This document shows, piece by piece, positions 40 to 36,413 of a stretch of DNA of 47,190 nt. The translations under genes were made by a program, and so were the position numbers. The stretch comes from an uncultured Bacilli bacterium (lineage in GTDB: Bacteria; Bacillota_I; Bacilli_A; RF39; UBA660), in NCBI GenBank assembly GCA_944359085.1, contig CALVSQ010000005.1:1-47190 (forward strand). The letters are read 5' to 3'. Every line of letters begins with the position of its first letter. Position 1 is the stretch's first letter. The notes beneath the pieces were generated by a model that was not told where the DNA came from, did not search any database, and saw only the letters and a list, made by a program, of their open reading frames with translations.

Positions 40-69
40 AAATTCCCTCCAATAATATTATATGTTTTT

Positions 70-125
70 AGTTGAATATTTGTTCAACTGATTATATTAT
101 ATATGAATGCATATTCAACTGTCAA
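70..125 (-). promoter_or_regulatory. Sigma-A promoter with two ArsR-type operators
   Basis: On the minus strand, TTGACA (120-125) and TATAAT (96-101) are 18 bases apart, a near-consensus promoter for the ArsR-like gene. One imperfect dyad, TGAAT-N4-ATTCA (104-117), lies in the -35/-10 spacer. A second, AGTTGAA-N6-TTCAACT (70-89), lies just downstream of the -10. Placement in the spacer and over the start region is the classic arrangement for steric repression, and the TGAA-Nx-TTCA form matches ArsR/SmtB operators. Binding itself is inferred. Confidence 0.65.
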
Positions 126-170
126 TGATTTTATAAAAATATTTTTATTTTATTACATTTTTTGAATAAT

Positions 171-196
171 AAAAAAAAGAAAGGATTTAGCTTTCT
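171..196 (-). terminator. Terminator of DUF5655 copy 1
   Basis: On the minus strand the six-base stem AGAAAG/CTTTCT (191-196 with 178-183, seven-base loop) is followed by eight T residues. The stem includes the last codons of the upstream gene. Confidence 0.6.
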
Positions 197-1029: not shown

Positions 1030-1101
1030 ATTAAATGTAGAATAGACTTCTATATTGGAATGACTTTTCTTATTTATATAAGCATCTTCGAACTCAAAAA
1101 T

Positions 1102-1150
1102 GTTCCTGTGTAACCACCAAGATTGCTGGGTGTCGATTTTACTTGTAAAA
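1102..1150 (-). other. Attachment-like site at the recombinase end (element junction)
   Basis: On the minus strand, TTTTACAAGT (1141-1150), GCAATCTTGG (1117-1126) and ACAGGAAC (1102-1109) occur with exactly the spacing seen at 16703-16751 inside spoVD. The site starts 21 bases after the stop codon of the serine recombinase, where such enzymes usually keep attP. Because a DUF5655 gene follows here as it does at the other copy, the simplest reading is a junction between two tandem elements. The exact crossover dinucleotide cannot be told. Confidence 0.65.
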
Positions 1151-1170
1151 AAAATTATTTGACATAATAT

Positions 1171-2754: not shown

Positions 2755-2872
2755 TTTCTTTTTCTTTCATTATTTTTTCGTTTGCTAATTTAAATTCTTC
2801 AAATGTTATTTTACCTTTTTGATATAACTCTTTATTGATTATTAATTTTAATTCTTTTAATATTTTTTTCAT
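2735..2872 (-). CDS. 45-residue charged protein overlapping the recombinase start
   Basis: The ORF starts M-K-K-I-L-K-E-L-K-L and ends E-N-E-Y-C-K-N. It is rich in Lys and Glu and should be helical. A strong GGGAGG ribosome site lies a few bases upstream. Its last six codons overlap the recombinase start in another frame, implying coupled translation. The segment K-G-K-I-T-F-E-E-F-K-L-A-N-E-K recalls SHOCT-like small helical modules. Small proteins encoded with serine recombinases can be recombination directionality factors, but nothing here proves that role. Confidence 0.7.
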   Translation of the reverse strand: MKKILKELKLIINKELYQKGKITFEEFKLANEKIMKEKENEYCKN

Positions 2873-2912
2873 ATATACCTCCCTTTTAATTTTATTAAAA
2901 TTATTAGTAAAT

Positions 2913-2939
2913 ATGAAAAAAACAAGAACTCTTCTTGTT
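2913..2939 (-). terminator. Terminator closing the biosynthetic operon
   Basis: The eight-base perfect stem AACAAGAA/TTCTTGTT (2921-2939, three-base loop) is followed on the minus strand by seven T residues. It starts right at the stop codon of the HAD gene and separates the operon from the recombinase unit. Confidence 0.85.
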
Positions 2940-3739
2940 CAATAATTATTATTAGTATTATTCAAAAATGAAATTAAATAATCAGCAACACCATCTTCAT
3001 CATTACTTTTAGTAATATAGTCAGCATGCTTTTTTAATTGGTCAGTTGAATTTTCAACAGCTACTCCAATACCAGCAATATCAATCATTGATATATCATT
3101 ATTATCATTGCCAATTGCTATAGTATTCTTTATAGGAATATTTAAGTACTCTGCTAATACTTTTAAAGAATTACCTTTTGATGAATTAGAACTAATCACA
3201 CTAAACCATAATTCTTCTTTATCCTCTCTTGATGAATCAACAACACATAAATTAGATTTTTGTTCAATTGATGATTTATATTTTTTAACTAATTCTTTTT
3301 CTTTGCTAATAATCATAATTTGTTTTATCTCTTTTTTTAATAATATATCGAGATTATTATCATCTAATAAAATCTGTGAATCATTTCTGGTAAACATTGT
3401 TACATATTCAGTATTTTCTGATACGAACATAACTCTAAGCCCAAGCTTCTTTGTTTCTTGATATATTATTTTACATTCCTCTTTTGGTAAATATGTAGAA
3501 TAAATATTTTTTTTATTAATATTATCATAGATTTCTGTACCATTAGATGATATTAAATATTCATTTAAACCTGCTTCATTTGAAACCTTTAATGTATAAT
3601 ATCTTGGTCTTGCAGTGCAAATAACAACAGTATTTCCACATTCTACAACCTTTTTTATAATTTTTTTTGTTTTATCAGAGATATTACCATCAGAATGTCT
3701 TAATGTACCATCACTATCAATTGCAATTAAATATTTCAT
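2939..3739 (-). CDS. Cof-type HAD hydrolase
   Basis: This is a 266-residue haloacid-dehalogenase-fold phosphatase of the Cof/YidA type. Motif I is I-D-S-D-G-T-L with nucleophile Asp8 and acid Asp10. Motif II lies near V-I-C-T-A-R, and motif IV is G-N-D-N-N-D-I-S-M. The middle of the protein has the size of a C2 cap. Family members dephosphorylate sugar phosphates, nucleotides or FMN-like compounds. It is the last gene of the operon, one base after the NUDIX gene, so a dephosphorylation step in the pathway or a detoxifying role is likely. The substrate cannot be predicted. Confidence 0.85.
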   Translation of the reverse strand: MKYLIAIDSDGTLRHSDGNISDKTKKIIKKVVECGNTVVICTARPRYYTLKVSNEAGLNEYLISSNGTEIYDNINKKNIYSTYLPKEECKIIYQETKKLGLRVMFVSENTEYVTMFTRNDSQILLDDNNLDILLKKEIKQIMIISKEKELVKKYKSSIEQKSNLCVVDSSREDKEELWFSVISSNSSKGNSLKVLAEYLNIPIKNTIAIGNDNNDISMIDIAGIGVAVENSTDQLKKHADYITKSNDEDGVADYLISFLNNTNNNY

Positions 3740-3740
3740 A

Positions 3741-4268
3741 TTAATCTTTATCCATATTAATTATTTTGTTATATTCTTTAAAAATGTCTAGCATTTCTTC
3801 AACAATTACCTTGTTTATTGGATTATCAGGTATACTATCAATTAATACTTGTTCAACGTTTTCAATTGGGAAAGTTTTAACAGTAAAATTACCATCTTTT
3901 TCCCAATCATCTAATTTTGAATTGTTCATGTCAAATTTAGCATCAGTATTTATAATATAATAATAAATATCATTTTTTCTATTTTTACCAGAACCATGAT
4001 AATTTTTACTATAATAAGTAATTTTTTCAAATGGTTTTAATTTAGCATCTTTTATTTCTATTCCAGTTTCTTCTGATATTTCTCTTAATAAACATTCTTC
4101 TAAACTTTCGCCATCCTCTAAATGACCACCTGGAAATTGGTAAGTTTTATGAGAATAGCCTAAAGTTATTTCATTATTGCTATTGATAATCAAACCTTTT
4201 GTTCTAGTAACAACCTCATCAATATCTTCTAATTTTAAATTATCATAATTATATAATATTTCTTTCAT
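3741..4268 (-). CDS. NUDIX hydrolase with intact NUDIX box
   Basis: The protein contains a complete NUDIX box, G-G-H-L-E-D-G-E-S-L...R-E-I-S-E-E-T-G-I, so it should hydrolyse a nucleoside diphosphate linked to another group. I place the start at the internal ATG (4266-4268), because GGAGTG lies seven bases before it and the longer reading has no ribosome site. A gap of about 42 bases from the kinase gene is the largest inside the operon. The protein could trim a nucleotide-linked intermediate made by the nucleotidyltransferase at 5221-5787, or clean up by-products. It contrasts with the catalytically degenerate NUDIX protein at 14360. Confidence 0.87.
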   Translation of the reverse strand: MKEILYNYDNLKLEDIDEVVTRTKGLIINSNNEITLGYSHKTYQFPGGHLEDGESLEECLLREISEETGIEIKDAKLKPFEKITYYSKNYHGSGKNRKNDIYYYIINTDAKFDMNNSKLDDWEKDGNFTVKTFPIENVEQVLIDSIPDNPINKVIVEEMLDIFKEYNKIINMDKD

Positions 4269-4310
4269 ACAACTACACTCCATTCTTTAATCAATTTATA
4301 TTATATCACA

Positions 4311-5216
4311 TTATCTCAATAATTTTTTACTTTTGTTAAACAAAATATCATTATATAACTCATATTTAGGATACTTTTCTAGCCACATTAATGAGTTTAA
4401 ACAATCAAAAAGTAATAATCTGTCATCAAATTTATCACCATTTATCACTTCAAAATTATTTTTTATAAAATTCATAATGTTTCGAAAATCATAAGCAGTT
4501 AATATTATTTTTGAATTAGTGTTAAAGGAATTAGGATTTCTTGACATACGGTTTATAGGATCTAATTCCCTCTCAACAAATGAACGTTTTATTTTTTCAA
4601 AATCAATTATTGATATTTTATTATCATCATTAACTAAAATATTATTAAAATGCAAATCCCCATGAATTAATCCAGTTTTTGCGCCTTCTAATAAATTTGG
4701 AATTATATTCTTTAATTCATATAAATAATGTATTTTTTCCTTATTTAAAATATTAGAATCTATAATTTTATTTAAGTAATTATCATATTCTTTTAACAGC
4801 AAATCTAAGCAATTATCATCAAAATGTGAATTATAATCAAGAGAATGTATTTTATCTAACTTTTCCAATAATTGAACTAATATCTGTTGTTTTTCACTTT
4901 CTTTTAATAATGGCCATTTTAATAATAATGATTCTCCATTAATTTTTCTTTCTAAATAATACACATATGGAAAAGACTTTTTCGTAAAATCACTAAATAT
5001 CACCTTTGGAATAAATTCTAAAGTATCATTATTTAATAAAAATTCCACTTCTTTAATTGTACTATTATCTTTAATAGGATTAGTGACAATTTTCAAAATA
5101 TATTTATCATTTATCTGATAAATCATTCTGCTATAACCAGAAGTTATTTGCTTTATACTTGTTATTTTTTCATTTATATTTTTTTCTATTATTTGTATTA
5201 CTATTTCATTAAGCAT
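4311..5216 (-). CDS. APH/choline-kinase-fold phosphotransferase (operon kinase 2)
   Basis: This 301-residue protein has the aminoglycoside phosphotransferase/choline kinase fold. The catalytic loop is L-I-H-G-D-L-H-F-N-N-I-L and the metal-binding motif is I-I-D-F-E. The N-terminal lobe has Y-I-L-K-I-V for the ATP lysine. D-F-E is typical of choline/ethanolamine kinase-like members. It follows the nucleotidyltransferase directly and its AAAGAGG ribosome site lies in that gene's last codons. A kinase plus a nucleotidyltransferase is the layout of LicA/LicC, which make CDP-choline. By analogy the pair may phosphorylate and then activate an alcohol or amino alcohol. An antibiotic-modifying self-resistance enzyme is the alternative. 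Confidence 0.82.
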   Translation of the reverse strand: MLNEIVIQIIEKNINEKITSIKQITSGYSRMIYQINDKYILKIVTNPIKDNSTIKEVEFLLNNDTLEFIPKVIFSDFTKKSFPYVYYLERKINGESLLLKWPLLKESEKQQILVQLLEKLDKIHSLDYNSHFDDNCLDLLLKEYDNYLNKIIDSNILNKEKIHYLYELKNIIPNLLEGAKTGLIHGDLHFNNILVNDDNKISIIDFEKIKRSFVERELDPINRMSRNPNSFNTNSKIILTAYDFRNIMNFIKNNFEVINGDKFDDRLLLFDCLNSLMWLEKYPKYELYNDILFNKSKKLLR

Positions 5217-5220
5217 ATAA

Positions 5221-5787
5221 TTACCTCTTTAATACTAATCTTTTATCATCTTTAATTAAATTAATATAATCATTTGGAGTATTTATATTGACAAATCCAT
5301 CCCCAACATTAACAAAAGTTCTGTACTCTTCAAAATTATCAAATAAATGATAAAGAGAATGAAGACTATTATCTGAATTATCTATTACACTCTTTAACAA
5401 CTTATAATTATTTACTTTCACAGCAACAATAGCACGTTCATTACCATAAAAGCTTATGTTTTCACATATATCCTTTATAATTATATCCATTGTTTTTTCA
5501 TCATAATATGTATCTCCATATAAATAAGTTGTTGGATCATCAAGATAATCGTAAGCATACTTTTTATGAAAATAATCATCATATTTTGAAACTATCCTCT
5601 TTGCATATTTACTTTCATGATTTTGATTACTTGATAATATATATATATCATCAGTTGACCTTTCTAAAATCATTCTAATAGTTCTATCAATTAATCTTTC
5701 ATTGTTAATAATAACTTCTTGTTTCGTAATTCCAAGATAATTATTCCATCTTGTTCCTTTGCCATCTGACATTATTATATATTTCAT
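5221..5787 (-). CDS. MobA/LicC-like nucleotidyltransferase
   Basis: This 188-residue GT-A-fold protein begins M-K-Y-I-I-M-S-D-G-K-G-T-R-W, a variant of the L-x-A-G-x-G-T-R nucleotide-binding loop of sugar-phosphate and phosphocholine nucleotidyltransferases. A conserved Lys follows in G-I-T-K-Q-E, and Asn-Thr-Pro-Asp/Asn-Asp-Tyr lies near the C-terminus (I-N-T-P-N-D-Y), as in MobA and IspD relatives. It would join an NMP from an NTP to a phosphorylated substrate with release of pyrophosphate. The first Ala of the usual A-G pair is replaced by Asp, which may reflect an unusual substrate. It sits between the phosphorylase and kinase genes with short gaps. Confidence 0.78.
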   Translation of the reverse strand: MKYIIMSDGKGTRWNNYLGITKQEVIINNERLIDRTIRMILERSTDDIYILSSNQNHESKYAKRIVSKYDDYFHKKYAYDYLDDPTTYLYGDTYYDEKTMDIIIKDICENISFYGNERAIVAVKVNNYKLLKSVIDNSDNSLHSLYHLFDNFEEYRTFVNVGDGFVNINTPNDYINLIKDDKRLVLKR

Positions 5788-5796
5788 AATTCCACC

Positions 5797-6564
5797 CTAA
5801 AATTTACTAATTATCTTTTGAAGTTTTTTTGTTCTAGTTGAAAGATATTCTTGCTTATTCTCGATTGGCTCATAATAATTTGTACCAGTGATCAATGAAT
5901 CAGATATTACTAAAATTGGAAACCCTTCTTTTCCCATAATTTTCATACATTTACCAAATGAAGCAGTTTCTTGTTCAATGCAAGACGCACCAAGTTTCAT
6001 TATTTCTTGTATATGATAATATTCGCCTATTAATGTATCTGTCGAATAAACTCCACCATTTTTATACGAAAAATTACTATTTTTTAAAACTCTCTCGATA
6101 TGTTGTTTAATTTCAGTGCTAAAAAACATTTTATTAAAAAAATTGGCAATTTCTATTTTCTTTTCAAAATATAATGATGCCCCATCACCTGAAATGGAAT
6201 AACATGGCATAAAAATGTCTCCTTCATGAACATTTTTATCCAAAGAACCAGCAGAACCTAAAAATATATATGGTGCATCAATATTTCGCAATAGTAGTAA
6301 ATTATCAAACATATTTGGTGCTCCTTTGCCAGTCTTAATAAATAATATTTTTTTATTATTATAATACAAAATAAATGTAGAAGTGCTTCCTATTTTCAAA
6401 TTTTCAACACTATATTCTTCATTAAATACAAAATGTGGTTTCCAAGTTGGTGAAACAATCACTAAATCAAAATGTTGCTTATCATCTATATTCAATTTAC
6501 TCATAGCTACATTGCTAAAAGAATAGTACTTTTTTAGTATATTATTTAATTCATTCTTATTCAT
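5797..6564 (-). CDS. Nucleoside phosphorylase/nucleosidase family protein
   Basis: This 255-residue protein belongs to the PNP/UDP phosphorylase superfamily. Seen are F-L-G-S-A-G-S-L...V-H-E-G-D-I in the phosphate and ribose region, G-G-V-Y-S-T-D-T-L, and E-Q-E-T-A-S-F in place of the usual E-M-E-T-A ribose-binding motif, followed by V-I-S-D-S-L. The family cleaves the N-glycosidic bond of purine or uridine nucleosides or of MTA/SAH. In this operon it could release or exchange a nucleobase, or clear 5'-deoxyadenosine made by the neighbouring radical SAM enzyme. It lies two bases after the radical SAM gene, which favours a linked role. Confidence 0.83.
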   Translation of the reverse strand: MNKNELNNILKKYYSFSNVAMSKLNIDDKQHFDLVIVSPTWKPHFVFNEEYSVENLKIGSTSTFILYYNNKKILFIKTGKGAPNMFDNLLLLRNIDAPYIFLGSAGSLDKNVHEGDIFMPCYSISGDGASLYFEKKIEIANFFNKMFFSTEIKQHIERVLKNSNFSYKNGGVYSTDTLIGEYYHIQEIMKLGASCIEQETASFGKCMKIMGKEGFPILVISDSLITGTNYYEPIENKQEYLSTRTKKLQKIISKF

Positions 6565-6565
6565 A

Positions 6566-7492
6566 TTAAATCTTTCTAACTAAACTTTTTATTTTTGGAT
6601 TATTAAGATCCTGAATATTTTCGATGCCTAATTCACCCATTTTACCGCCTAAACACCATGTGCGATCATTTTCAAAATCAGAATATATATATATTTCACC
6701 ATCAATTATTTCTCCAACTTCATAACCAGGTTTACAAATACATGTACATCCATAAACTTTATCATCAGGTGTAATACAAACTTTTTTTACACCAGCACTA
6801 CATCTGAAATTATTTGGTTTATTAACAGTATCACAACCAAAAGTTCCACTTCTTCTTACTTCAAAATCATTTATATCATATTTATCTCTGGCTTGCTTTA
6901 ATTGTGTAAAGAAACTATCATAATCTTCCTTTACTAATCCTATATTAGATAAATTTTTAGCTCTTCCTTGAATAAATATTTTATTAAATTCAATTCCAGA
7001 TGCACCTAGTTGATATGCGTTATCACATATTTGCAAAGTATCTTTTGCATTTTTATTTGTTATTGTTGTCATTAGAACAACTCTAAGTCCTTTTTCTCTT
7101 AGCATTTTAATAACTGTATTTAACATCTCGTTGGTAATACCATTTAAGCTATCTTGTATTTCAAAATGATAAGACATAAATACATTCCTTATTCCATTTT
7201 CTAATAATAAATCTATTATCTCTGGTTCTTGAAATATCCTAAGTCCATTTGTCATAATCCAATCTTGTCCAATTATTTTGTAAGAAGGTAAATATCCCAA
7301 GTCAACAAGTGGTTCGGCACCATCTATTCTTACTAATTTATATCTATTTTTATAATATTCTGCTAATTTTTTTAGTTCTTCTGGAGTTCTATTTCCAGTA
7401 TATCCTATGTAACAATGATTGCAAGCAACATTACATTTTGAACAAGCCATTAATATAACTCTATTTCCTTCATATTTTTTCAATTCTCTCAT
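6566..7492 (-). CDS. Radical SAM enzyme with cysteine-rich C-terminal domain
   Basis: The 308-residue protein has the radical SAM cluster motif C20-x3-C24-x2-C27 (C-N-V-A-C-N-H-C-Y) after K-C. D-G-A-E-P (57-61) stands where the SAM-binding G-G-E-P is normal. The C-terminal third has seven further cysteines (F-G-C, R-C-S, V-C-I, G-C-T-C-I-C, W-C-L-G-G), consistent with a SPASM/Twitch-type auxiliary cluster. Such enzymes often modify peptides or small molecules through a 5'-deoxyadenosyl radical. No precursor peptide gene is visible nearby, so a small-molecule substrate is more likely. Its ribosome site lies in the final codons of kinase 1. Confidence 0.9.
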   Translation of the reverse strand: MRELKKYEGNRVILMACSKCNVACNHCYIGYTGNRTPEELKKLAEYYKNRYKLVRIDGAEPLVDLGYLPSYKIIGQDWIMTNGLRIFQEPEIIDLLLENGIRNVFMSYHFEIQDSLNGITNEMLNTVIKMLREKGLRVVLMTTITNKNAKDTLQICDNAYQLGASGIEFNKIFIQGRAKNLSNIGLVKEDYDSFFTQLKQARDKYDINDFEVRRSGTFGCDTVNKPNNFRCSAGVKKVCITPDDKVYGCTCICKPGYEVGEIIDGEIYIYSDFENDRTWCLGGKMGELGIENIQDLNNPKIKSLVRKI

Positions 7493-7494
7493 AT

Positions 7495-8379
7495 CTATTT
7501 TTCCTTTCTTAAAATCTTACTATTATCAAACCACTTGGGTTTCAACGAACTAAATTCATCTGAATAATCTAAAAATTTATTAACAACTGTAACACCATCT
7601 TCCAATGTTTTATTACCCATTCTATTACAATAAAGTATATAATCCAAGCAATATAATGAACCATATAAATTATATATTATCCAAAAATTATCTGGGATAC
7701 TGTTATTAAAATATTCATTTATTAAAATTGTATAAAATTTAGGATAATCTAAATTACAAGCATTTGTTGATAAATCTATCCAGGCAAAATCGTTCTTACA
7801 TACATCTAAATCTATAAAACAAATTCTATCATCATTAACTATTATATTTCCAGGATGAAAATCGCCATGTATAATGCTTGTATCTAATTCTTTTAAATAC
7901 TTAATATTATCTAAAACAAATAATTCTAAAACAGAAGATGTATAATCTATACCAAGATTTTTTAATTTATTTATTTTTTTATTAAATGACTTTATAAACT
8001 TATCATATATATCTGTTTTTGCATTTGTATCTATATTATGCATTTTTAATAGTTCTTCTGCAACTATTTTTCCATATTTAATAATTAAACTATCATCAAT
8101 TAATAAATTATCTAAAGAAACTCCATCAATCCAATCTACAACAGCATAACCATGTTTATTATCAGAAAATTGACCAAAATCATATATTTCAGGAACTGCT
8201 ATTCCCTTATCATGTAAAATCCTAATATTATTAAAAGCTCTATATCTACTATCCATAAATCTTATATCATATAATCTTAGCATAAATATCTTATTATCTC
8301 TTTCAACAATATATTTTTGAACAGATGAACCACCTAATGGAAATTTTTTTATAATCTTATAACTATTAATACTATCCAT
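7495..8379 (-). CDS. APH-family phosphotransferase (operon kinase 1)
   Basis: This is an aminoglycoside-phosphotransferase-fold kinase. Catalytic loop I-I-H-G-D-F-H-P-G-N-I-I and metal site F-I-D-L-D are intact, and the N-terminal lobe contains M-L-R-L-Y for the ATP lysine/arginine position. I start it at the ATG 8377-8379 (M-D-S-I-N-S-Y-K), which overlaps the last codons of the ABC ATPase gene. Upstream residues of the longer frame are only that gene read out of phase. Two different kinases of this fold in one operon could act on two intermediates, or one could protect the host from the product. The substrate is unknown. Confidence 0.83.
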   Translation of the reverse strand: MDSINSYKIIKKFPLGGSSVQKYIVERDNKIFMLRLYDIRFMDSRYRAFNNIRILHDKGIAVPEIYDFGQFSDNKHGYAVVDWIDGVSLDNLLIDDSLIIKYGKIVAEELLKMHNIDTNAKTDIYDKFIKSFNKKINKLKNLGIDYTSSVLELFVLDNIKYLKELDTSIIHGDFHPGNIIVNDDRICFIDLDVCKNDFAWIDLSTNACNLDYPKFYTILINEYFNNSIPDNFWIIYNLYGSLYCLDYILYCNRMGNKTLEDGVTVVNKFLDYSDEFSSLKPKWFDNSKILRKEK

Positions 8380-9043
8380 GTTTTTTCTCAAATAAAGTAT
8401 GCTTATTAAAACTAAATATTCTATCTGACACTTTATCAATAAACTCATCTTCGTGTGATACTACAATTAAAGTCATATCTTCATCAACAAGTTCATTAAT
8501 TAATTCCAGTACATTATCTTTCATTTCTTTATCTAAAGCACTTGTAGGTTCATCTAATAGGATAATATCTGGTTCCATTAATAAAGTTCTAGCAATAGCA
8601 ACTCTTTGCTTTTGCCCTCCAGATAATTCATCTGGATATTTATCTTTTTTATCATCCAAATCTACTTTTTTTAAAATATTTAAAGCTTTATGAACACTAT
8701 CTTTTTTAGAATAACCCTTTATTTTAATTAAACCTATTATAAGATTATCTAATACAGTTAAGTGTTCAAATAAATTATAATCTTGAAATACTATACCAAT
8801 TTTTTGTCTTAATTCCACAAGAGATATTTCAGATATATCCATTCCTTTAAACTTTATCTTACCATCATTAATATTTTCTAAACGATTTATACACTTTAAT
8901 AAAGTACTCTTTCCACTTCCACTTTTTCCTATTATAGAAATCACTTCTCCAGTTTTTATCTTTAAATTAACATTATTAAATACCAGTTCATCTCCAAAAT
9001 ATTTAGATACATTTTCAAATTTTAATATGAAATCTTTTTTCAC
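8372..9043 (-). CDS. ABC transporter ATPase, polar amino acid (GlnQ/HisP) type
   Basis: At 223 residues it has all ABC motifs: Walker A G-K-S-G-S-G-K-S-T, Q-loop V-F-Q-D-Y-N-L-F, signature L-S-G-G-Q-K-Q-R-V-A-I-A, Walker B I-I-L-L-D-E-P-T-S-A-L-D and switch histidine V-V-S-H-E. V-F-Q-D-Y-N-L-F is typical of polar amino acid importers. The gene starts with GTG, overlapping the permease stop by four bases (GTGA). With the permease and binding protein it makes a complete importer inside the metabolic operon. It probably supplies an amino-acid-like precursor or recovers the product. Confidence 0.92.
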   Translation of the reverse strand: MKKDFILKFENVSKYFGDELVFNNVNLKIKTGEVISIIGKSGSGKSTLLKCINRLENINDGKIKFKGMDISEISLVELRQKIGIVFQDYNLFEHLTVLDNLIIGLIKIKGYSKKDSVHKALNILKKVDLDDKKDKYPDELSGGQKQRVAIARTLLMEPDIILLDEPTSALDKEMKDNVLELINELVDEDMTLIVVSHEDEFIDKVSDRIFSFNKHTLFEKKHG

Positions 9044-9816
9044 GATTTCTTCACCACCCTCGGATTAATTTTCTTATACACTAAATCCAATAGTTTACAA
9101 AATGCATAACAAATTATAAAATATATAAGTGATGTAAAGATTAATGGAAAGAATGCTTCATAAGTCCTATTTCTTATGATATCAGTTGCTTTAGTTAATT
9201 CTATTACGGATATATAGCCAGCTATAGAAGTTGATTTTATTAATGAAACACTTTCATTTTTATAAACTGGTATTACATACGAAAGCACTTGAGGAATAAT
9301 TATATATCTAACTGTTTGAAGTTTAGTAAAACCTAAAGCATAAGCAGAATCAATTTGTGTTCTATTAATTGATAAAAAAGCTCCTTTAACAATCTCAGAA
9401 ACATATGCAGAAAAATATATTGAGAATGCTATTATTGCAACTAAAATAGGTTCTATACTTATATCTCCAAAAATCCCAAAATAGAATGTTAATAATAATA
9501 CTGTTACTGGAACTCCCTGTAAAAATCGTACTATTATATATGACAATATATTTAAAACCTTTATCTTTGATTTCTGTAATAAGAACAAAATAAATCCTAA
9601 TAGTGTACCAAATACAATTGATAAGAATGAAATTAATAGAGTTGATTTTAATCCTTTAAAAAATAAAATATATCTTTTTTCAACAATTACTGTTCGATTA
9701 AAACTATCACTAATATCTTTAAAAAAATCGATAATTACATCTATACTAATAACTGTAACTATTAGTATAAGAAGTAATATAATGAAGTACTTTATAAATT
9801 TAGTTTTGTTTTTCAT
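9040..9816 (-). CDS. ABC transporter permease, HisM/GlnP type
   Basis: This membrane protein carries the HisMQ-type EAA loop, seen as S-A-Y-A-L-G-F-T-K-L-Q-T...I-I-I-P-Q-V. About five to six hydrophobic segments are visible, beginning at F-I-K-Y-F-I-I-L-L-L. The start is taken as the internal ATG (9814-9816), which has AGAGGA just upstream; the longer TTG reading lacks a site. It overlaps the end of the binding-protein gene by 17 bases. In many gut bacteria a similar permease is fused to its binding protein; here the two are separate, overlapping genes. Confidence 0.88.
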   Translation of the reverse strand: MKNKTKFIKYFIILLLILIVTVISIDVIIDFFKDISDSFNRTVIVEKRYILFFKGLKSTLLISFLSIVFGTLLGFILFLLQKSKIKVLNILSYIIVRFLQGVPVTVLLLTFYFGIFGDISIEPILVAIIAFSIYFSAYVSEIVKGAFLSINRTQIDSAYALGFTKLQTVRYIIIPQVLSYVIPVYKNESVSLIKSTSIAGYISVIELTKATDIIRNRTYEAFFPLIFTSLIYFIICYAFCKLLDLVYKKINPRVVKKS

Positions 9817-10597
9817 TTTTTCCTCTAACAACTACTACAATTCCACCAGTATAATCCGGTTCTGAAAATAAAACAGATTTTTTTCTTTCTTCAGTAACTA
9901 TAATCGAACATCCAGCTATATCTACCTTCCCTGATTTTAATGCTGGTATTATTCCATCAAATGACATTTCTATAACTTCCAATTTATAACCTAATTCTTT
10001 ACAAATATAACTAATTACATCAATATCATATCCTACTATTTTATTGTTTTTCATATAAGCAAATGGTGCTGAACCAGATACTGTAGCGAATTTAACCACG
10101 CCTTTTGAATCATCATAATGGTAAACTTCTAATTCTTTCTTGCTTTCATCATTACCCATCCATTTATCCTCAAATATTTTTAATTTACCATTTTTATTCA
10201 TCTTAACTAATTCTTTATTAATCTCATCCTGTAAATTACTTTTCGATGGATTAATAGCAAATGCATAACTATCTTCTGTTAATTTCTCTTTTAATATTCT
10301 TAAATCTTTATTTTCTTTTATTATTTCTTTAGCTAAAGGCTCATCTGTTAAGAAACCATCTATCTTACCAGATTTTAAAGCAGATATTTGATCACTATAA
10401 CTATTATAATATAAGATTTTAGGATTTTCTATATTATCTTGTGCTATAGTGTCATATTCAGAACCTGTATAAACGCCAATATTTTTATTATTTAAATCAT
10501 CTTTAGTTTCGATAATATTTAGTTTTTTTGAACAACCAGTTGTTATTAATATGACAGATATAATTATTAATAAATATTTACTAAATTTTTTTAACAT
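9800..10597 (-). CDS. Amino-acid-type solute-binding lipoprotein with reversed lobe order
   Basis: The N-terminus is a lipoprotein signal (L-L-I-I-I-S-V-I-L-I-T-T-G-C, Cys22). Two family 3 binding-protein lobes follow in reverse of the usual order. Residues about 30-147 resemble the second lobe (D-D-L-N-N-K-N-I-G-V-Y-T-G-S...S-G-K-I-D-G-F-L-T-D-E-P). Residues about 160-258 resemble the first lobe (F-A-Y-M-K-N-N-K-I-V-G-Y-D-I-D-V...F-D-G-I-I-P-A-L-K-S-G-K-V-D-I-A). The order could reflect circular permutation or a trimmed tandem duplication; related permuted lobes occur, as I recall, in fused binding-protein/permeases. A strong AGGAGG ribosome site lies inside the preceding ligase gene. Confidence 0.87.
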   Translation of the reverse strand: MLKKFSKYLLIIISVILITTGCSKKLNIIETKDDLNNKNIGVYTGSEYDTIAQDNIENPKILYYNSYSDQISALKSGKIDGFLTDEPLAKEIIKENKDLRILKEKLTEDSYAFAINPSKSNLQDEINKELVKMNKNGKLKIFEDKWMGNDESKKELEVYHYDDSKGVVKFATVSGSAPFAYMKNNKIVGYDIDVISYICKELGYKLEVIEMSFDGIIPALKSGKVDIAGCSIIVTEERKKSVLFSEPDYTGGIVVVVRGKNEKQN

Positions 10598-11840
10598 ATT
10601 TTCTTCCTCCTATATCATCTGATGATACTATTTCAAAAGCATCATAAACCGCTTGCATCTTTCTTAATGTATCAAATTCATCTACACCAGAAATTTGAAC
10701 CCAACCAGATGCATCATTTCCAACCCGTCTTTTTTCACAATATTCTCCAGGTTTAACAAACATCTCTCCATCAATTACACCATCCATTTTAAGAAGTTCT
10801 TCTAATGATGTAACTTTTTCTATTAAACCTGACTTATTAGGTAAATATAAATCACCTACACTAATAATGTCATCTCTATATTTTAAATTAACCTTTTTAT
10901 GAATTGATATATCTATTAATGCATTAATCATATCAAATCCATATGATAAACTATGATTCTTAGTTGCTTGACAACCAGGTAATCTCCAACCTAATTCACT
11001 TGGCATTACGTTACCATCTCTATCAATAAAGACCTCTATTGTCATTGCTCCATTTTTCAAATTCATACCATCAACTATTTTTTGAATTAATTCTTTAGGA
11101 ACAAATTTGAAATACTCAGGAACTTTTGGAACCGTCATATGACAATTTAATTTATTATCCATAGCCGCCCACAAAGTTCTATTTGGAATATATGTAACAT
11201 ATGAATCTAAAACAACACCATCTTGAACTAGACTTTCTATTGACCATTCTTGATCAGAGCAATATGATTCAACCATATATTTTTCAGTTGTTAAATCAAT
11301 ATTTATCTGTTCTAATTCATCTAATGATTCTATTTTATAAACATTTTTACTATTCATTAAATCTCTTGGCTTAAATATAATTGGCTCACCAACATGTTTT
11401 CTCATAAATTGTAAAATATCCTTTTTAGAAGTAACAACTTGATAATCAACCGTTTTCAAACCAATTTGATTAAATTTATCTTTCATAGCAACTTTATCTC
11501 TTACCCAACTAACTTGTTCTTCACTTAATGCATCAAGTCCAATACTTCTAGCAACCTTATTAGCAAATTCCATATAAAATTCTGAATCATTTAAGAAATA
11601 ATCAATTTTATATCCTTTATGCTGTAACCAATTATCACGGAATATATGAATATCAAAATCGGTATATGGATAAGGAAATTCATAAAAATCTCTATATTTA
11701 TCCATATATTCCTTACTGAAATATCTAAAACTCTTAACATTTCTAAGAAAAAGCGTGTTAATATCATCCCTTTTACGTAATGCATATGAAAGATCAGAAT
11801 CGTACTCTTCAAAACATAACAGCATTTTTTTATCCGCCAT
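10581..11840 (-). CDS. ATP-grasp ligase (carboxylate-amine ligase type)
   Basis: This 419-residue protein has an ATP-grasp fold. Visible are the substrate-binding N-terminus, the lysine-containing strand I-I-F-K-P-R-D-L (about 155-162), the E-x-Y-C-S-D-Q-E-W-S-I-E segment, and the metal-binding strand around T-I-E-V-F-I-D-R-D-G-N...S-E-L-G-W-R-L-P-G. These resemble ligases of the BacD/carnosine-synthase/PurK-like group that form an acyl phosphate and couple a carboxylate to an amine. It lies two bases after another ATP-grasp gene and overlaps the binding-protein gene. With the aminotransferase and amino acid importer it suggests a peptide-like or amide product. The substrates are unknown. Confidence 0.85.
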   Translation of the reverse strand: MADKKMLLCFEEYDSDLSYALRKRDDINTLFLRNVKSFRYFSKEYMDKYRDFYEFPYPYTDFDIHIFRDNWLQHKGYKIDYFLNDSEFYMEFANKVARSIGLDALSEEQVSWVRDKVAMKDKFNQIGLKTVDYQVVTSKKDILQFMRKHVGEPIIFKPRDLMNSKNVYKIESLDELEQINIDLTTEKYMVESYCSDQEWSIESLVQDGVVLDSYVTYIPNRTLWAAMDNKLNCHMTVPKVPEYFKFVPKELIQKIVDGMNLKNGAMTIEVFIDRDGNVMPSELGWRLPGCQATKNHSLSYGFDMINALIDISIHKKVNLKYRDDIISVGDLYLPNKSGLIEKVTSLEELLKMDGVIDGEMFVKPGEYCEKRRVGNDASGWVQISGVDEFDTLRKMQAVYDAFEIVSSDDIGGRKYVKKI

Positions 11841-11842
11841 AT

Positions 11843-12730
11843 TTATCTAATTCTCCTTTCAATTGTTTTGGCAAATGTTCTTATAGCATTAGCCTTAATA
11901 TCTTCATCATCAATATACTTTATTAAAAGATCTGGCTCTGCTAATTCAACTTCCATTATCATAGCTTTATTATCAACTAGCACCATATCTACTCTCATGT
12001 ATAAATAATTATTAAACTCTGGTATTTTCTCTACCTTTTTAGCTAGTTGAATTATACTTTCTGGAACTTCATTAACTAAATAAGTTTTTTTCTTTTCATG
12101 AAATACATTCGGAAATCTAAGCATAGTATGAGTTAATACACCACCTATAAAGATACATGAATATTCACCATCATTTATATTAGATATAAATGGTTGAATC
12201 ATTAACATACAATCTTTATTTTTTTCTAATATAGCTTTATATGTTTTTAAAATATCTGATTTTTTTAACGTATTTGGTGTATTATTATTATTAAATTCAT
12301 CTACAAGATAAGTATTTTCACCACTTCCTGATATTGTTGGCTTTATTACATAAGGTTTATTATCAAATAAGTCTATTTTTTTTAAGTTAGATAGATTTAA
12401 AAACATTGTATTTATAAAGTTTATATTATTCTTTTTCAATATTTCAAACTGAATATTTTTCATAATATTCTTTAAAATCATATCAGGATTATTTAATAAA
12501 AGAATATTGTTATTTTTTATATATAATAACCAATTTTTAAATTTTTCAAAATCGTTTTGATATCCCCATACTGATCTTAATATGAGTGCATCATAATTGA
12601 CATCAACTGGTTGTTGCCAAGAAATAATTTTAGTTTCTATACCCAAATCACTTAATGCATTTTTTAAAAACATATCTTCATCTATTTTATTAATCCATTT
12701 ATCACAAGATACTATTGCTACTTTTTTCAT
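11843..12730 (-). CDS. RimK/glutathione-synthase-like ATP-grasp protein
   Basis: This ATP-grasp protein begins M-K-K-V-A-I-V-S-C-D-K-W and carries L-I-L-R-S-V-W-G-Y-Q-N-D near residue 55. That is the hallmark of a widespread but poorly characterised COG0189-like family (L-R-S-x-W-D-Y). The ATP-binding strand is Y-V-I-K-P-T-I-S-G-S-G, and metal ligands lie in M-R-V-D-M-V...I-M-E-V-E-L-A-E-P-D. I start it at the internal ATG (12728-12730), two bases after the aminotransferase stop, because the earlier ATG has no ribosome site. It is the second of two ligases in a row, so two condensation steps, or a ligase with a tailoring partner, are plausible. Confidence 0.85.
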   Translation of the reverse strand: MKKVAIVSCDKWINKIDEDMFLKNALSDLGIETKIISWQQPVDVNYDALILRSVWGYQNDFEKFKNWLLYIKNNNILLLNNPDMILKNIMKNIQFEILKKNNINFINTMFLNLSNLKKIDLFDNKPYVIKPTISGSGENTYLVDEFNNNNTPNTLKKSDILKTYKAILEKNKDCMLMIQPFISNINDGEYSCIFIGGVLTHTMLRFPNVFHEKKKTYLVNEVPESIIQLAKKVEKIPEFNNYLYMRVDMVLVDNKAMIMEVELAEPDLLIKYIDDEDIKANAIRTFAKTIERRIR

Positions 12731-12732
12731 AC

Positions 12733-14253
12733 TTATCTCAACTTTCTTAAACATTTATTCATCGCACTAAAGTGTTCTACTAAATCTTCCCTTGGTAATG
12801 CTGTAGTAACTCTTCCTATAAGTTGTTCCTCATTTGGCCATGATATTGATTGTCCTAAAATAAGTTTAATTTTTTCTTGTTCATACATATATTTAAGCAA
12901 TTCTTTCTCATCACTAATTATTCTTCCATTTTCTGCAACTTTATTTTTTAATTGAGTAAAATCTAAAATTTCAAAAAAGCCTGAATCTGGTAATGTTCCA
13001 TTTACAAAGTCAACATTTGGTATTCCATCTAAAATTTGACTTATGTTATAACCAAAACCATAATTTCTTATATCACTCTCAATTTGTACTTTTACGTTAC
13101 TATCTTCAATAAAATCTATACCATTAATTAATGCTTTCAATAATTCTAAACGATATTTATATTCAGCAATAATTGGATTAAAATAGTTATCATATTCTTT
13201 TTTTCGTCTTTCAGATACATTAAATGCACCAGCTAATGCTCTACCTTGTAATACTGGTGAAGAATCCATTGTCTGAAAAATCCTATTTCGTATTGCCCTA
13301 ATTATTATTTCGTTTGCAACTATCATACCAGATCTAATTGACGCTAAACCATAAGATTTTGATAAACCAGTTATTGTTATTGTATTATCAAAAAATTTTT
13401 CATAAGATGCCATTGGCTTTGCTAAATTGTCTCTATCATAAGTTAAATCTCTATATATTAAGTCATCTATAACAAATACACCTTTTGATAAACACACATT
13501 TCCAATACCCTCAAGTATTTCTTTATTATTTTCATTCATCACTTTTCCTAAAGGATTATGTGGGTTTTCATTTAAAAATGCAACAACTTTTGGTGTATAC
13601 CCTAAAGATTCACCGTATTTATCTTTTAAATTTAAATTAATTTCATCTATTCTTTTAGATAGTTTTTGTGGATTAACATACCAATTATCTTCTTCAGATA
13701 ACGGTAATATCTCAACAGTTGCTCCAGAAATACGTTCAGGAACAAAAGTAAATAAGCCATAATTAGGGCCAGTCATCAATATTACATCATGAGGCCTAGC
13801 AATAATGCTTGAAATAATATTAAATGCATGTGTAGAGGAAACCGTAAAGATAATATTATCTTTTGATAACTCACTATTACTCTTAAATCCTTCTTGTTTT
13901 AAATACTCTAAAATTGTTATTCTTGATTCTTCGTCACCGGCTGCCATAGGATAATCTGATAGTTCATCGCTATCAATTATCTTAATTAGTGCTTCTTTAC
14001 ATAAAGGAAATGCAGGTGTTCTCATTGGACTACCACCACCAAGTGATCTAGAAGATATGTTTTTTATTCTTTCATTTTCAAGTGCATATAAATCATTTCC
14101 ATATAATCCAAAAGCATCATAAATTTTACTAACTTCTTTAGAAAAGTGACCATCAACTAAGTTTTCTCCTAAATTGGGTAACCCTCTAACAGGATGTTCT
14201 AAAATTGGATTTTTTTCTATAACTCGTTTTAATGAATCAGGTATACTTTGCAT
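12733..14253 (-). CDS. PLP-dependent class I/II aminotransferase, first gene of the operon
   Basis: This 506-residue fold-type I enzyme has the usual landmarks: N-E-N-P-H-N-P-L-G (228-236), V-I-D-D-L-I-Y (261-267), the PLP lysine Lys299 in T-G-L-S-K-S-Y-G, and the carboxylate arginine in S-I-R-S-G-M. It is longer than standard aspartate aminotransferases (about 400), with an N-terminal extension (S-L-G-G-G-S-P-M-R-T-P, about 70-80) and extra C-terminal residues, as in some natural-product aminotransferases. A clear ribosome site (GAGGTGA) and a leader of about 100 bases precede it. It probably makes or consumes an unusual amino acid feeding the ligases. Confidence 0.88.
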   Translation of the reverse strand: MQSIPDSLKRVIEKNPILEHPVRGLPNLGENLVDGHFSKEVSKIYDAFGLYGNDLYALENERIKNISSRSLGGGSPMRTPAFPLCKEALIKIIDSDELSDYPMAAGDEESRITILEYLKQEGFKSNSELSKDNIIFTVSSTHAFNIISSIIARPHDVILMTGPNYGLFTFVPERISGATVEILPLSEEDNWYVNPQKLSKRIDEINLNLKDKYGESLGYTPKVVAFLNENPHNPLGKVMNENNKEILEGIGNVCLSKGVFVIDDLIYRDLTYDRDNLAKPMASYEKFFDNTITITGLSKSYGLASIRSGMIVANEIIIRAIRNRIFQTMDSSPVLQGRALAGAFNVSERRKKEYDNYFNPIIAEYKYRLELLKALINGIDFIEDSNVKVQIESDIRNYGFGYNISQILDGIPNVDFVNGTLPDSGFFEILDFTQLKNKVAENGRIISDEKELLKYMYEQEKIKLILGQSISWPNEEQLIGRVTTALPREDLVEHFSAMNKCLRKLR

Positions 14254-14344
14254 ATAATCACCTCAAACTACAAATATTATATAATAATAAAGTTCATTTT
14301 AATCATTCAAAAATTCGATAAACTATATATAAAAAACTAATAAT
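14254..14344 (-). promoter_or_regulatory. Promoter region of the 13-gene operon
   Basis: A TATAAT -10 lies near 14277-14282 on the minus strand, but no good -35 is found at the correct distance; a TTGAAT sits too far upstream. A weak -35 is what an activator-dependent promoter would show, and a LysR regulator is encoded immediately upstream. I see no convincing LysR T-N11-A box by eye. Confidence 0.4.
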
Positions 14345-14369
14345 AAAAGACTAATTAAATCAATTAGTC
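14345..14369 (-). terminator. Terminator after the LysR-NUDIX pair
   Basis: The eight-base stem GACTAATT/AATTAGTC (14349-14356 with 14362-14369, five-base loop) overlaps the NUDIX stop region. On the minus strand it is followed by TTTTATTATT. It separates the regulatory pair from the biosynthetic operon. Confidence 0.7.
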
Positions 14370-14875
14370 TCTTTCATTAAAGGTATTACATACTCTTCTA
14401 TTCTTGGAATTAAAACCCATGCTATTTCACCATTTTCAATCATATTATACAACTCTTTCAAATCAATCCATTTTGCTTGAACAGCGGTATTGTCTACAAA
14501 ACATATATCATTTAAATCAATATCTTTATTAACGATATAAGTTTCATAAATATAATGATAAGGATCACGTAATTTTGTATCTATTTTTTTAATATCAAAA
14601 TTTGAAATTTTTATTCCAATTTTAGCAGCAATTGCCCTAATACATGTATCAGTTGGACTTTCACCACTTAAAACATTGCCATTAATACTATTCCAAAAAC
14701 CAGGATAATGTATATTATAATTTAAAGTATTTCGTATTAATAGTAATTGTTTTTTTGAATTTAAAATCCATGTATTTATAGAGTAATGATACTTACCATC
14801 TGGTATTTCATCAGTATCATTTATAACGATTCCAGTATTATTAAATTTATCATCATATAAATCCCATCTACTCAT
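14360..14875 (-). CDS. NUDIX-fold protein with degenerate catalytic box
   Basis: The 171-residue protein aligns with IPP-isomerase-like NUDIX proteins (N-T-W-I-L-N-S-K-K-Q-L-L-L-I-R...H-Y-P-G-F-W). Its NUDIX box reads G-N-V-L-S-G-E-S-P...I-R-A-I-A-A-K-I-G-I. The canonical R-E-x-x-E-E has become R-A-I-A-A-K, so the metal-binding glutamates are gone and hydrolysis is unlikely. Its ATG overlaps the stop of the LysR gene by one base (TAATG), so the two are co-translated. A ligand-sensing or regulatory role is an inference; NUDIX-fold repressors such as NrtR show that the fold can be used this way. Confidence 0.8.
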   Translation of the reverse strand: MSRWDLYDDKFNNTGIVINDTDEIPDGKYHYSINTWILNSKKQLLLIRNTLNYNIHYPGFWNSINGNVLSGESPTDTCIRAIAAKIGIKISNFDIKKIDTKLRDPYHYIYETYIVNKDIDLNDICFVDNTAVQAKWIDLKELYNMIENGEIAWVLIPRIEEYVIPLMKETN

Positions 14876-15762
14876 TATAATTCCTCCTTATACTGTTTTT
14901 TTAATATGTTTATAAATCTAGAGATATTTTTAGAATTTTTTGATTTTTTGTGAACAATATATATATTATCATTAAATAATTCTTCTGTTACTTTTATTTC
15001 TTTTATTTCACCACTTGCAATTTCTTCTTTAAAAAACTCTTTATTCCCAAAACATAATCCTAAATTGTTTTTTACTAATTCTTTAGATAATATACTATCA
15101 TTAATTGAAATAACATTTTCAAATAATATTCCATTTTCAAAACACATTTTTTGGAATTTACCATTTTTCTTATTTGGACACATTGATATTAGTTTTGTAT
15201 TTCCAAGTTCTTTAATAGATACAACAAATTCATAATTTTTGGATAACTCTTTACCTGAAACAAAAACATTACTTAATGTACATAATAACTCTTTATTATC
15301 AGCATTTATTAAATTTGTATAATCTTCGTAGTCAATAACAATATCATATTCATCCTCATATTTTTTTACATCTAATTTTGAATAAAGTTTCATATTAATA
15401 TGAATATTTGGATACATATTCATAAATTCAACTATAGCATCTTTAAATATAAAATCAGATAGGTAATGTCTAATTCCAATAGTTATTTCCATAGTATTTG
15501 GATTATCAAATTGTTCTAAATTTTGATTTAAAATACTAAAAGCTGATTTTAGATTTTCATATAAGTTATATCCATCTTCAGTTAATTCAAAATTTTTATT
15601 ATCTCTAATAATTAATACTTTATCTAATTGCAGTTCTAATTGTTTAATATTGTAACTTAAGGATGATTGAGCGATATTCAAATTTTTTGATGCATTTGTA
15701 AAGCCATTATAATAAACTACATAATAAAAATATTTAAACAAATTTAAATTAAAATTATTCAT
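14875..15762 (-). CDS. LysR-family transcriptional regulator
   Basis: The N-terminal winged helix-turn-helix (about 1-65) shows L-F-K-Y-F-Y-Y-V...A-S-K-N-L-N-I-A-Q-S-S-L-S-Y-N-I-K-Q-L-E, classic for LysR proteins. A two-lobed effector-binding domain follows, for a total of about 295 residues, a normal length. The start is the ATG at 15760-15762, with AGGTGA seven bases upstream. A -10 (TATAAT near 15785) is visible. It is the only regulator in the element and lies directly upstream of the operon on the same strand, so it is the likely pathway activator. Many LysR genes are divergent from their targets; this one is not. Confidence 0.92.
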   Translation of the reverse strand: MNNFNLNLFKYFYYVVYYNGFTNASKNLNIAQSSLSYNIKQLELQLDKVLIIRDNKNFELTEDGYNLYENLKSAFSILNQNLEQFDNPNTMEITIGIRHYLSDFIFKDAIVEFMNMYPNIHINMKLYSKLDVKKYEDEYDIVIDYEDYTNLINADNKELLCTLSNVFVSGKELSKNYEFVVSIKELGNTKLISMCPNKKNGKFQKMCFENGILFENVISINDSILSKELVKNNLGLCFGNKEFFKEEIASGEIKEIKVTEELFNDNIYIVHKKSKNSKNISRFINILKKQYKEEL

Positions 15763-15859
15763 AAATATCACCTATTAACATATATTATAACATACATCAT
15801 TCATTTATATAAATACGTTAACTTATTTTTTCTCTAAATAATATAAATATTTTGATATT

Positions 15860-16786
15860 TCATAACTCATTATAATATATGGGCATTATAATATCTATAT
15901 TTTCTTCTTTTAACACTTTAAAATATCTACATAAAGGCTCATAATTAGTTCTACTTACTATATTAAGAATATTATTGTTATCTTCAACATCTAATAATCT
16001 AACATAAATACCATATTTCCTTTTAGATAAAATAGTAAAGTTTCTTTTATTTCTAAATACTAATCCTTTATTTGTAGTATAGGAAGTAACATTAGAATTA
16101 ATAGAATTAATTTTAAATGATAAAGTATTAAATAAGTTATCTATTGAATCAATATTAGATTCTGATATATATGAATAATAATTTCTAATTAACTCAATTA
16201 CATAATTTAAATTTTCTAATTTATCTACTTTAACATAATAACACAAACTAGATTTTTCATAGCCTTTTCTTATTAAGAGTTTATCATCATAATCAAATTG
16301 CTTTATATTCTTATGTAATGAGATTAAAATATCTGATTGTTCTACTTGTATTTCTATTATCTTTTTACCCAATCTATAAACAACATTTTTTATTAAATAG
16401 TTTCTTTTAATATTGTCACTAATACTTAAAATTTGCTTATCAAACTCATCAAACAATTCAATGTCAATATCTTTTTTATTATAAATTATATATTCATAAC
16501 AACTTGTATCTACATTTAGTAATTTAGTTTTTCTTTCTGATGCTTCTTTGTCAACACTAGAAATAACATTAACATCAGACATATCAATCACTTCATTATT
16601 TGAATATTGTACTCTATTGTATATTAAATTATATGTAGAACAAACCTCTAGTTTGGTAGAGTAATTTATATTATTTGTAAGTTTTTCAACAAGCACAAAT
16701 ATGTTCCTGTATTTATTCCAAGATTGCAAGAGTTTTCTACTACTTGTAAAAAAGTTTGCTCTCCATGACCACCATGTTTCCAACAA
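15860..16786 (-). CDS. Twin DUF5655-like domain protein, copy 2
   Basis: This paralogue of the gene at 187-1029 also has two DUF5655-like modules: about 105-205 (E-L-F-D-E-F-D...L-L-I-R-K-G-Y...L-N-Y-V-I-E-L-I-R) and about 215-305 (R-N-K-R-N-F...S-K-R-K-Y-G-I-Y-V-R-L-L-D-V-E-D). It is about 25 residues shorter than copy 1 at the C-terminus. The listed TTG start lies inside spoVD in another frame and has no clear ribosome site. An ATG at 16580-16582 (M-S-D-V-N-V) follows a weak GAAGTGA. However, codons between the att core and that ATG align without gaps with copy 1, with synonymous differences, which suggests they are or were translated. It is the first gene of the element. Function unknown. 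Confidence 0.65.
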   Translation of the reverse strand: MLETWWSWRANFFTSSRKLLQSWNKYRNIFVLVEKLTNNINYSTKLEVCSTYNLIYNRVQYSNNEVIDMSDVNVISSVDKEASERKTKLLNVDTSCYEYIIYNKKDIDIELFDEFDKQILSISDNIKRNYLIKNVVYRLGKKIIEIQVEQSDILISLHKNIKQFDYDDKLLIRKGYEKSSLCYYVKVDKLENLNYVIELIRNYYSYISESNIDSIDNLFNTLSFKINSINSNVTSYTTNKGLVFRNKRNFTILSKRKYGIYVRLLDVEDNNNILNIVSRTNYEPLCRYFKVLKEENIDIIMPIYYNEL

Positions 16787-17769
16787 TGAATAGTAGCACC
16801 ACCTACTTTAACAGAACCACCATCATAAAAATGATCTTCATCTAAATTTACAATATTTTCTTCTAAAGCTGTAGCTAAAGTGATTATTTTAAAGGTAGAT
16901 CCAGGCTCATATGTCATCCAAATAGGTAAATTACGATTAATTATTTCAGTTGAATAATCTTGATAATTGCTTAGTTCAAATGTAGGACGTGAAGACATAG
17001 CAAGTATCTCTCCCGTTTTAGGATCCATAACTATTCCTAATGCTTGATCTGGATTATACTTACTAACAGCATTATCCAATTCTCTTTCTAATGCAGATTG
17101 GATATTATAATCAATTGTTAAATAAATATCTATACCATCTTGTGGTTGTTCATATACTTCTGATAATTGTAGTTTATTACCTTTAGCATCACTAAAAAAC
17201 TTAATAGCTCCATAACTTCCTGTTAAATAATCATCATACATTAATTCTAAACCTGATAACCCTTGATTATCTATTCCTACAAAACCTAAAGTATGCGCTA
17301 ATAAATTACCATAAGGATAATATCTTTTACTCTCTTTAAGTAAATATACACCTGGTAAATCTAAATCGTTTATCTTATCAGCAGTTTCATAATCTAATCT
17401 TCTACCTTCAGGATGAACTCTTTCAATAGAAGATTTAACTGAAACATGTTTGTACATTTCTTCATAAGTTATACCTAAAATAGGTGCAATTAATTCAGCC
17501 GTTTTTTCTTTATCTTCAATTTGATTAGGTATTAAAACTAATGATGTTGTTGTTATATTATCAGCTAATACAACACCATTTCTATCATATATTTTTCCCC
17601 TATTAGCTTCTATTGGTAAATTTCTACTCCATAAACTAGTTGCATAATTATTTAATTTTTCGTACTCAAATACTTGAATATAAAATACTTTACCAATTAT
17701 TAAAACAAAAAATAAAAATATAACTAACATAACTATTTTAATTCTTATATGAATATTTTTAAAAAACAT
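16666..17769 (-). pseudogene. spoVD: spoVD-like class B penicillin-binding protein, 3' part lost at the insertion
   Basis: This is the front of a SpoVD/FtsI-type transpeptidase: membrane anchor, PBP dimerisation domain (E-A-N-R-G-K-I-Y-D-R-N-G), then the transpeptidase with S-T-F-K (catalytic serine) and the SxN motif S-C-N. Right after S-C-N the frame switches to foreign sequence (L-G-I-N-T-G-T) and stops 18 residues later. The K-T-G motif and any PASTA domain are missing, so about 260-280 residues of a roughly 640-residue protein are lost. C-W-K-H-G-G-H-G-E-Q-T-F-L-Q-V-V-E-N is strongly SpoVD-like. I start at the ATG 17767-17769 behind GGTGAG. SpoVD makes spore cortex in Bacillus; in non-sporulating relatives a homologue may serve division. 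Confidence 0.85.
16703..16751 (-). other. Attachment-like site within spoVD
   Basis: On the minus strand this shows TTTTTACAAGT (from 16751), the core GCAATCTTGG (16718-16727) and ACAGGAAC (16703-16710), spaced as in the copy at 1102-1150. The left part is genuine spoVD coding sequence (F-L-Q-V-V-E-N-S-C-N); the right part belongs to the element. The native gene would probably read AATCCNGG (Asn-Pro-Gly) here, so crossover likely fell within or near AATC. This is an inference from the expected SpoVD sequence. Confidence 0.65.
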
Positions 17770-17832
17770 ATACTCACCCATTTAAGTATATGTTTTATTT
17801 ATAATATTTTTACTTTATGAATAACTACTTAA

Positions 17833-36360: not shown

Positions 36361-36413
36361 ATTATATCAAAAAAAACTAATATTTTTAATTACAAATTTG
36401 TAATATTAGTTTT
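36361..36413 (-). terminator. Terminator of the HA-repeat gene overlapping the next promoter
   Basis: The 12-base stem AAAACTAATATT/AATATTAGTTTT (36373-36384 with 36402-36413) is followed by T residues on the minus strand. An extended -10 (TGATATAAT, hexamer at 36361-36366) for the P-type ATPase operon begins in the T-run, so termination and initiation share DNA. Confidence 0.8.

Follow-up and report, generated by a model that had tools for sequence, protein, structure and literature searches.

Serine-recombinase elements interrupt the sporulation gene spoVD at three sites in a family of uncultured RF39 bacteria

Introduction

Sporulation genes interrupted by mobile DNA include sigK (skin), spsM (SPbeta), spoVFB (vfbin), gerE (gin), and yabG (yin), and the genes concerned are almost all mother-cell genes (PMC10747680, PMC6957869, PMC5595907). 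The locus described here resembles skin in sigK of B. subtilis and C. difficile in that a serine-recombinase element splits a mother-cell sporulation gene whose reading frame would be restored by precise excision. It differs from skin in the gene, in the use of three sites within that gene, in the presence of tandem elements and of several elements per gene, in its nonphage cargo, and in that excision is something we infer. The gin element in gerE of B. cereus ATCC10987 is likewise a nonphage gene-intervening element with serine recombinases (PMC5595907), but it has three of them for one site, whereas here each element carries one recombinase, with a separate recombinase clade for every site. 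SPbeta in spsM, vfbin in spoVFB, and yin in yabG also place mobile DNA in sporulation genes (PMC10747680), but they are prophage-like and occupy a single site in a single gene, unlike the spoVD elements. In another phylum and in other genes, the nifD, fdxN, and hupL elements of heterocyst-forming cyanobacteria are excised during development, from genes of a cell type that differentiates terminally. XisF, of the fdxN element, is a serine recombinase to which the spoVD-element recombinases are weakly similar, well below the XisF cutoff. ICEBs1 is a tyrosine-integrase element. Its secondary insertion in B. subtilis spoVD is also a site-specific one inside this gene, but it is a laboratory off-target event with undetectable excision, neither natural nor gene-restoring (PMC3715440).

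In the open-licence papers checked we found no mention of spoVD, spoVE, or spoIVA as natural targets of such elements, and prior reports elsewhere are possible. An annotation survey described spoVD as reduced or absent in RF39, where sporulation was nevertheless predicted (PMC10868615), and interruption of the gene may partly explain that observation.

Results

The spoVD gene is split by mobile DNA in the source genome

The window analyzed here is a stretch of 47,190 nucleotides that constitutes the entire contig C5 of a 1.13-Mb assembly, 68% complete. The nearest named relatives of the source organism are Candidatus Faecisoma, which GTDB assigns to the order RF39 (PMC8035907). The ORF at 16666-17781 (minus strand) encodes the N-terminal part of a class B penicillin-binding protein (PBP), with a PBP_dimer match, and covers only positions 4 to 107 of the 299 of the transpeptidase domain and positions 4 to 349 of the 636 of the NCBIfam SpoVD family TIGR02214. 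The homology to spoVD stops at the AAT (Asn) codon of the S-C-N motif, at 16725-16723, and the part carrying KTG is absent. This agrees with the preliminary description of the window, according to which spoVD was cut at its SxN codons and had lost KTG; the end that it gave for the gene, 17769, is the position of the likely ATG start, which has a GGGTGAG ribosome-binding site ahead (Table 1). A sigma-E-like box is enriched upstream of spoVD.

Since the contig stops at base 1, the window lacks the 3' half of the gene. Residues 419 to 640 were found on another contig, C18 (5319-5987), where the serine recombinase of a third element (3683-5350), different from that of the element in the window, is followed by the 3' piece of spoVD and then by mraY, with the same spoVD-mraY synteny as in intact relatives (G014, G007 contig C4, and G010). 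Residues 354 to 418 are not in the assembly (68% complete) because a further element occupies a second site, so the source organism's own spoVD cannot be fully rejoined in silico. In the close relative G013, the stretch from 354 to 418 is a separate piece between two elements. The two source pieces scored separately 381 and 237 bits against TIGR02214, matching its two ends, while the intact SpoVD of G014 clears the cutoff (740 versus 688 bits).

The interruption of the spoVD coding sequence in the source genome is confirmed as a sporulation gene split by mobile DNA. Chance is excluded, because 34 of the 80 loci of our named collection of close relatives are interrupted at exactly the same three sites. 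The element initially proposed at the SxN codons is there, and the insertion is now refined to include a second element in tandem and a further one at a second site. No intact second spoVD, which would have argued against restoration by excision, was found in the source genome, 68% complete as it is.

The split gene is not the division PBP, a possibility that had also been raised, because a separate vegetative FtsI is encoded in an mraZ-mraW-ftsL-ftsI operon on contig C40. FtsI was split at a junction in none of the 38 genomes checked. The source genome does contain sporulation genes: spoIVA, on contig C33, a sigma-E-like factor that scores 309 bits, under its 349 cutoff, and other sporulation-type sigma factors. 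Inteins and group II introns were discarded, as there were no such genes among the ORFs read at the breaks.

Table 1. Features of the spoVD locus in the window (contig C5) and of related split loci
Feature	Location	Strand	Remarks
Left end of tandem element B2	1..1124	-	Exits contig; nucleotide identity to G008 and G013 elements
DUF5655 protein, copy 1, left end of B2	187..1029	-	
Core GCAATC joining B1 right end to B2 left end	1121..1126	-	
Element B1, ~15.6 kb	1125..16722	-	Approximate bounds; one serine recombinase and metabolic cargo
Serine recombinase of B1	1171..2754	-	Resolvase, Recombinase, and zinc ribbon; site-B clade
B1 cargo span	2939..15771	-	Second NUDIX (3741-4283) read from translation
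DUF5655-like protein, copy 2, left end of B1	15860..16696	-	Equivalent position in B elements of G162 and G075
Left junction core GCAATC of B1	16722..16727	-	Probable crossover dinucleotide AA of Asn353 codon
spoVD 5' piece, codons 1-353, to Asn of S-C-N	16723..17781	-	ORF continues into element to 16666
CATATAC box upstream of spoVD	17786..17792	-	Conserved in genus; sigma-E/sigma-K -10-like, suggestive only
spoVE split by an element, locus L062	L062:7922-15290 (contig C18)		Own serine recombinase 13537-15120; radical-SAM/peptidase cargo; core GGGT in SEDS motif
spoIVA split loci, near residue 121 or about 400	L218 (G198:C8), L187-L197		
Genomes with spoIVA split at about residue 400	G014, G212		About residue 400

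Tandem elements in the window

Besides its recombinase, element B1 carries genes for a LysR regulator, two NUDIX proteins, an aminotransferase, an ATP-grasp/L-amino acid ligase, an amino-acid ABC transporter, APH-like kinases, a radical SAM protein, a nucleoside phosphorylase, and a HAD hydrolase. The ligase, aminotransferase, radical SAM, ABC transporter, and kinase genes resemble a small-molecule gene set. Comparison of ten B1 proteins with PHROGs recognized no phage structural or replication genes, by which a prophage would be known, and gave matches only to integrase, ABC transporter, NUDIX, and uncharacterized families. It does not qualify as an SCC cassette either, since the best scores against CcrA, CcrB, and CcrC were 115 to 125 for a cutoff of 900 bits. 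A search of viral contigs for relatives of the B1 recombinase found none.

The sequence past the core at 1126-1121 matches the left ends of the G013 and G008 elements, which indicates that B2 is stacked on the site of B1. This left end matches the G008 element at 100% identity across 281 bp and that of G013 at 99.6% across 226 bp, and the DUF5655 copies of B2 and B1 share 44% identity. B1 itself is 99.2% identical at the nucleotide level, over 12.8 kb, to an element of another species (G007), which implies that it still moves. The predicted junction of the B1 circle reads ...CGACACCCAGCAA|TCTTGGAATAAATACAGG... Elsewhere in the window, and unrelated to the element, 36412-38151 encodes a protein with several internal repeats of ~216 nt.

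Three insertion sites across the family

Among the matches listed, spoVD was interrupted in 54 of the 193 genomes of the family, not interrupted in 107, and missing from 32, some genomes being classed by match strength. The breaks occur only at Lys298 of SxxK (site A), Asn353 of SxN (site B), and Gln419 (site C), and the cores lie inside these codons (AA, AA, and CA, respectively). Several of the genes contain multiple elements, as in G089 (sites B and C, together on a single contig), G013 (likewise B and C), and G095, where A, B, and C are all occupied and the gene is in four pieces. Across the family, this sporulation gene, which looks essential, is a hot spot for insertion, with three sites, a dedicated recombinase clade for each, and elements stacked on one another. 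Two further candidates were rejected, since the two near-identical 3' halves that gave G205 the appearance of two spoVD states are overlapping contigs (99.96% over 7.1 kb), and the seemingly broken gene of G018 is one gene divided by contig ends. In two genomes, leftover spoVD fragments lie upstream of a complete spoVD-mraY locus (L110, 6200-11914, and L145), which suggests an escape from interruption through a second copy of the gene.

SpoIVA was present in 53 of the 54 interrupted genomes, in 99 of the 107 intact ones, and in 11 of the 32 without spoVD, in classes drawn from the matches listed (interrupted versus spoVD-less, P = 4e-11).

Recombinases and element composition

The shortest of the 16 complete elements measures 3.7 kb and the longest 15.6 kb, and the only gene common to all 16 is the serine recombinase, present once in each. 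Phylogenetically, the site-A, site-B, and site-C recombinases separate into three clades, supported at 99 to 100% and sister to each other. Many elements have, immediately ahead of the recombinase, a small ORF (52 to 100 aa, without a Pfam match) that is a candidate for the directionality factor.

The site-C recombinase evolves with a dN/dS of ~0.05 to 0.13. Its dS in the closest pairs (0.16 to 0.26) is similar to that of spoVD (0.25 to 0.31), so that in these pairs the site-C insertion probably dates from around the time when the species diverged; in distant pairs its dS is below that of spoVD, which shows transfer. Such transfer and the near-identity of B1 to the G007 element show that the elements spread horizontally.

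spoVE and spoIVA are split as well

The spoVE gene of the source genome is also split, on C18, in its conserved PVTG/VTLPFLSYGG motif, by a 6-kb element whose recombinase falls outside the site A, B, and C clades. Roughly a dozen relatives have their spoIVA broken close to residue 121 or 400, with a serine recombinase directly ahead of the 3' piece wherever the flanking sequence is present (Table 1).

Selection on the pieces and restoration in silico

Purifying selection on all the spoVD pieces is strong. Their pairwise dN/dS values are mostly 0.02 to 0.14 (up to 0.23 in single short segments), as in intact pairs, and part of this selection may predate the recent insertions. G007 encodes an intact second spoVD together with a broken copy in which codon 334 is a stop and Gly355 is replaced by Trp (G355W). 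Such decay is what would be expected of a redundant copy, although the bin could be mixed.

Scripted removal of the elements from relatives with complete elements gave a stop-free spoVD of 629 to 640 aa in 14 of 14 joins, a count that leaves out locus L091, which the script could not join. The rejoined genes, some of them from three or four pieces, differ from intact relatives by gaps of 0 to 2 residues. In the interrupted form of G095, the codon of the catalytic Lys reads Asn, and the right arm supplies AAG, so that recombination at the AA core would restore the Lys. As in skin-like elements, relatives combine a short direct repeat at both ends with exact in-frame restoration on removal in silico, the source organism's own gene being only partly covered, and B1 has its recombinase at the element end. 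With purifying selection on the pieces and a reading frame that excision in silico restores in relatives, the skin-like, gene-restoring architecture suggested at the outset gains support.

A search for attP-type circular junctions of site-C elements, with one pattern, found none in 193 assemblies. Contig ends fall within 150 bp of the junction in 8 of 34 cases, against 0.32 expected. Such a pile-up, with assembly graphs that branch at these points, would be expected if more than one arrangement, excised and integrated, coexisted, and strains with different elements could also produce it.

Discussion

We consider that spoVD is an interrupted sporulation gene that, quite probably, would be restored by excision of its elements during sporulation. 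Each element lies in the codons of a conserved transpeptidase motif and provides a single large serine recombinase that serves only that site. This recombinase, together with a putative directionality factor (perhaps the small upstream ORF), would excise the element as spores are formed, the mother cell being the most likely place, while the forespore would retain it and ensure its inheritance. In B. subtilis, the mother cell uses SpoVD, SpoVE, and SpoIVA under sigma-E. A broader proposal, toward which we lean only slightly, is that RF39 undergoes a programmed multilocus rearrangement of the mother cell, in which up to four or more elements with dedicated recombinases would leave spoVD, spoVE, and spoIVA before the spore is made.

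The elements might instead be ordinary mobile islands that use the motif codons as attachment sites and excise rarely and at random in the course of transfer, without developmental control, leaving sporulation to those cells that happen to be excised. We regard this as possible but rather doubtful. It would account for the metabolic, not regulatory, cargo of B1, for the recent movement of this element (the 12.8-kb identity with G007 contrasts with a spoVD dS of ~0.45), and for the lack of a sporulation promoter signal at the recombinases, since a sigma-E-type signal was found upstream of 1 of 40 and was not enriched. It fits less well with the concentration of insertions in spoVD, spoVE, and spoIVA while the FtsI paralog remains unsplit in 38 of 38 genomes, or with pieces under the same selection as intact genes, which demands frequent or reliable restoration. 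The site-C insertion, with a recombinase dS close to that of the gene in the closest pairs, is not fleeting there.

It is very improbable that the insertions represent neutral decay of a dead gene in lineages that are losing sporulation. Loss of sporulation does occur in this family, and has done so repeatedly among RF39 relatives (32 of 193 genomes among the matches listed lack spoVD, 21 of them also SpoIVA), and the broken copy of G007 is decaying. But in G007 the decaying copy is accompanied by an intact one, the frames are otherwise intact, the dN/dS of the pieces is low, and SpoIVA is kept in nearly all interrupted genomes. Even less credible is a split PBP whose pieces act as separate polypeptides without DNA rejoining: split proteins exist in principle, and we found nothing else in favor of it here, while the breaks cut the catalytic core between its SxxK, SxN, and KTG motifs, the downstream pieces start in frame with element DNA with no obvious start of their own at the junction, and some pieces have only ~55 to 65 residues. 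Least credible of all is an artifact of assembly or binning, with unrelated contigs or chimeric joins, because even though these are metagenome assemblies, with a source genome 68% complete and a G007 bin that might mix two species, the identical three sites come up in dozens of assemblies produced by different projects, several of which have both pieces and the element together on a single contig, and every site is served by a recombinase clade of its own.

For restoration by excision, the preferred reading, the sequences compared here depict a skin-like gene-restoring architecture, with new target genes, multiple sites occupied at the same time, and a distribution across the family. In the papers checked, the known gene-restoring cases involve one gene and one element each, while here there are three sites in spoVD, stacked elements, and partner genes that are also hit. 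The interruption of spoVD in about a quarter of the family suggests that these bacteria would need to edit their chromosome in order to make spores, and programmed DNA elimination as a routine of an uncultured lineage is now testable. If the multilocus reading is true, it would be a bacterial counterpart of the way in which ciliates remove their internal eliminated sequences.

The spoVD elements are also a source of many new site-specific serine recombinases for which the target is defined. Other serine recombinases, with related small ORFs of ~90 aa ahead of them, were observed on source contigs C1 and C9 (L165 and L168), one of them near genes resembling cotJB and cotJC.
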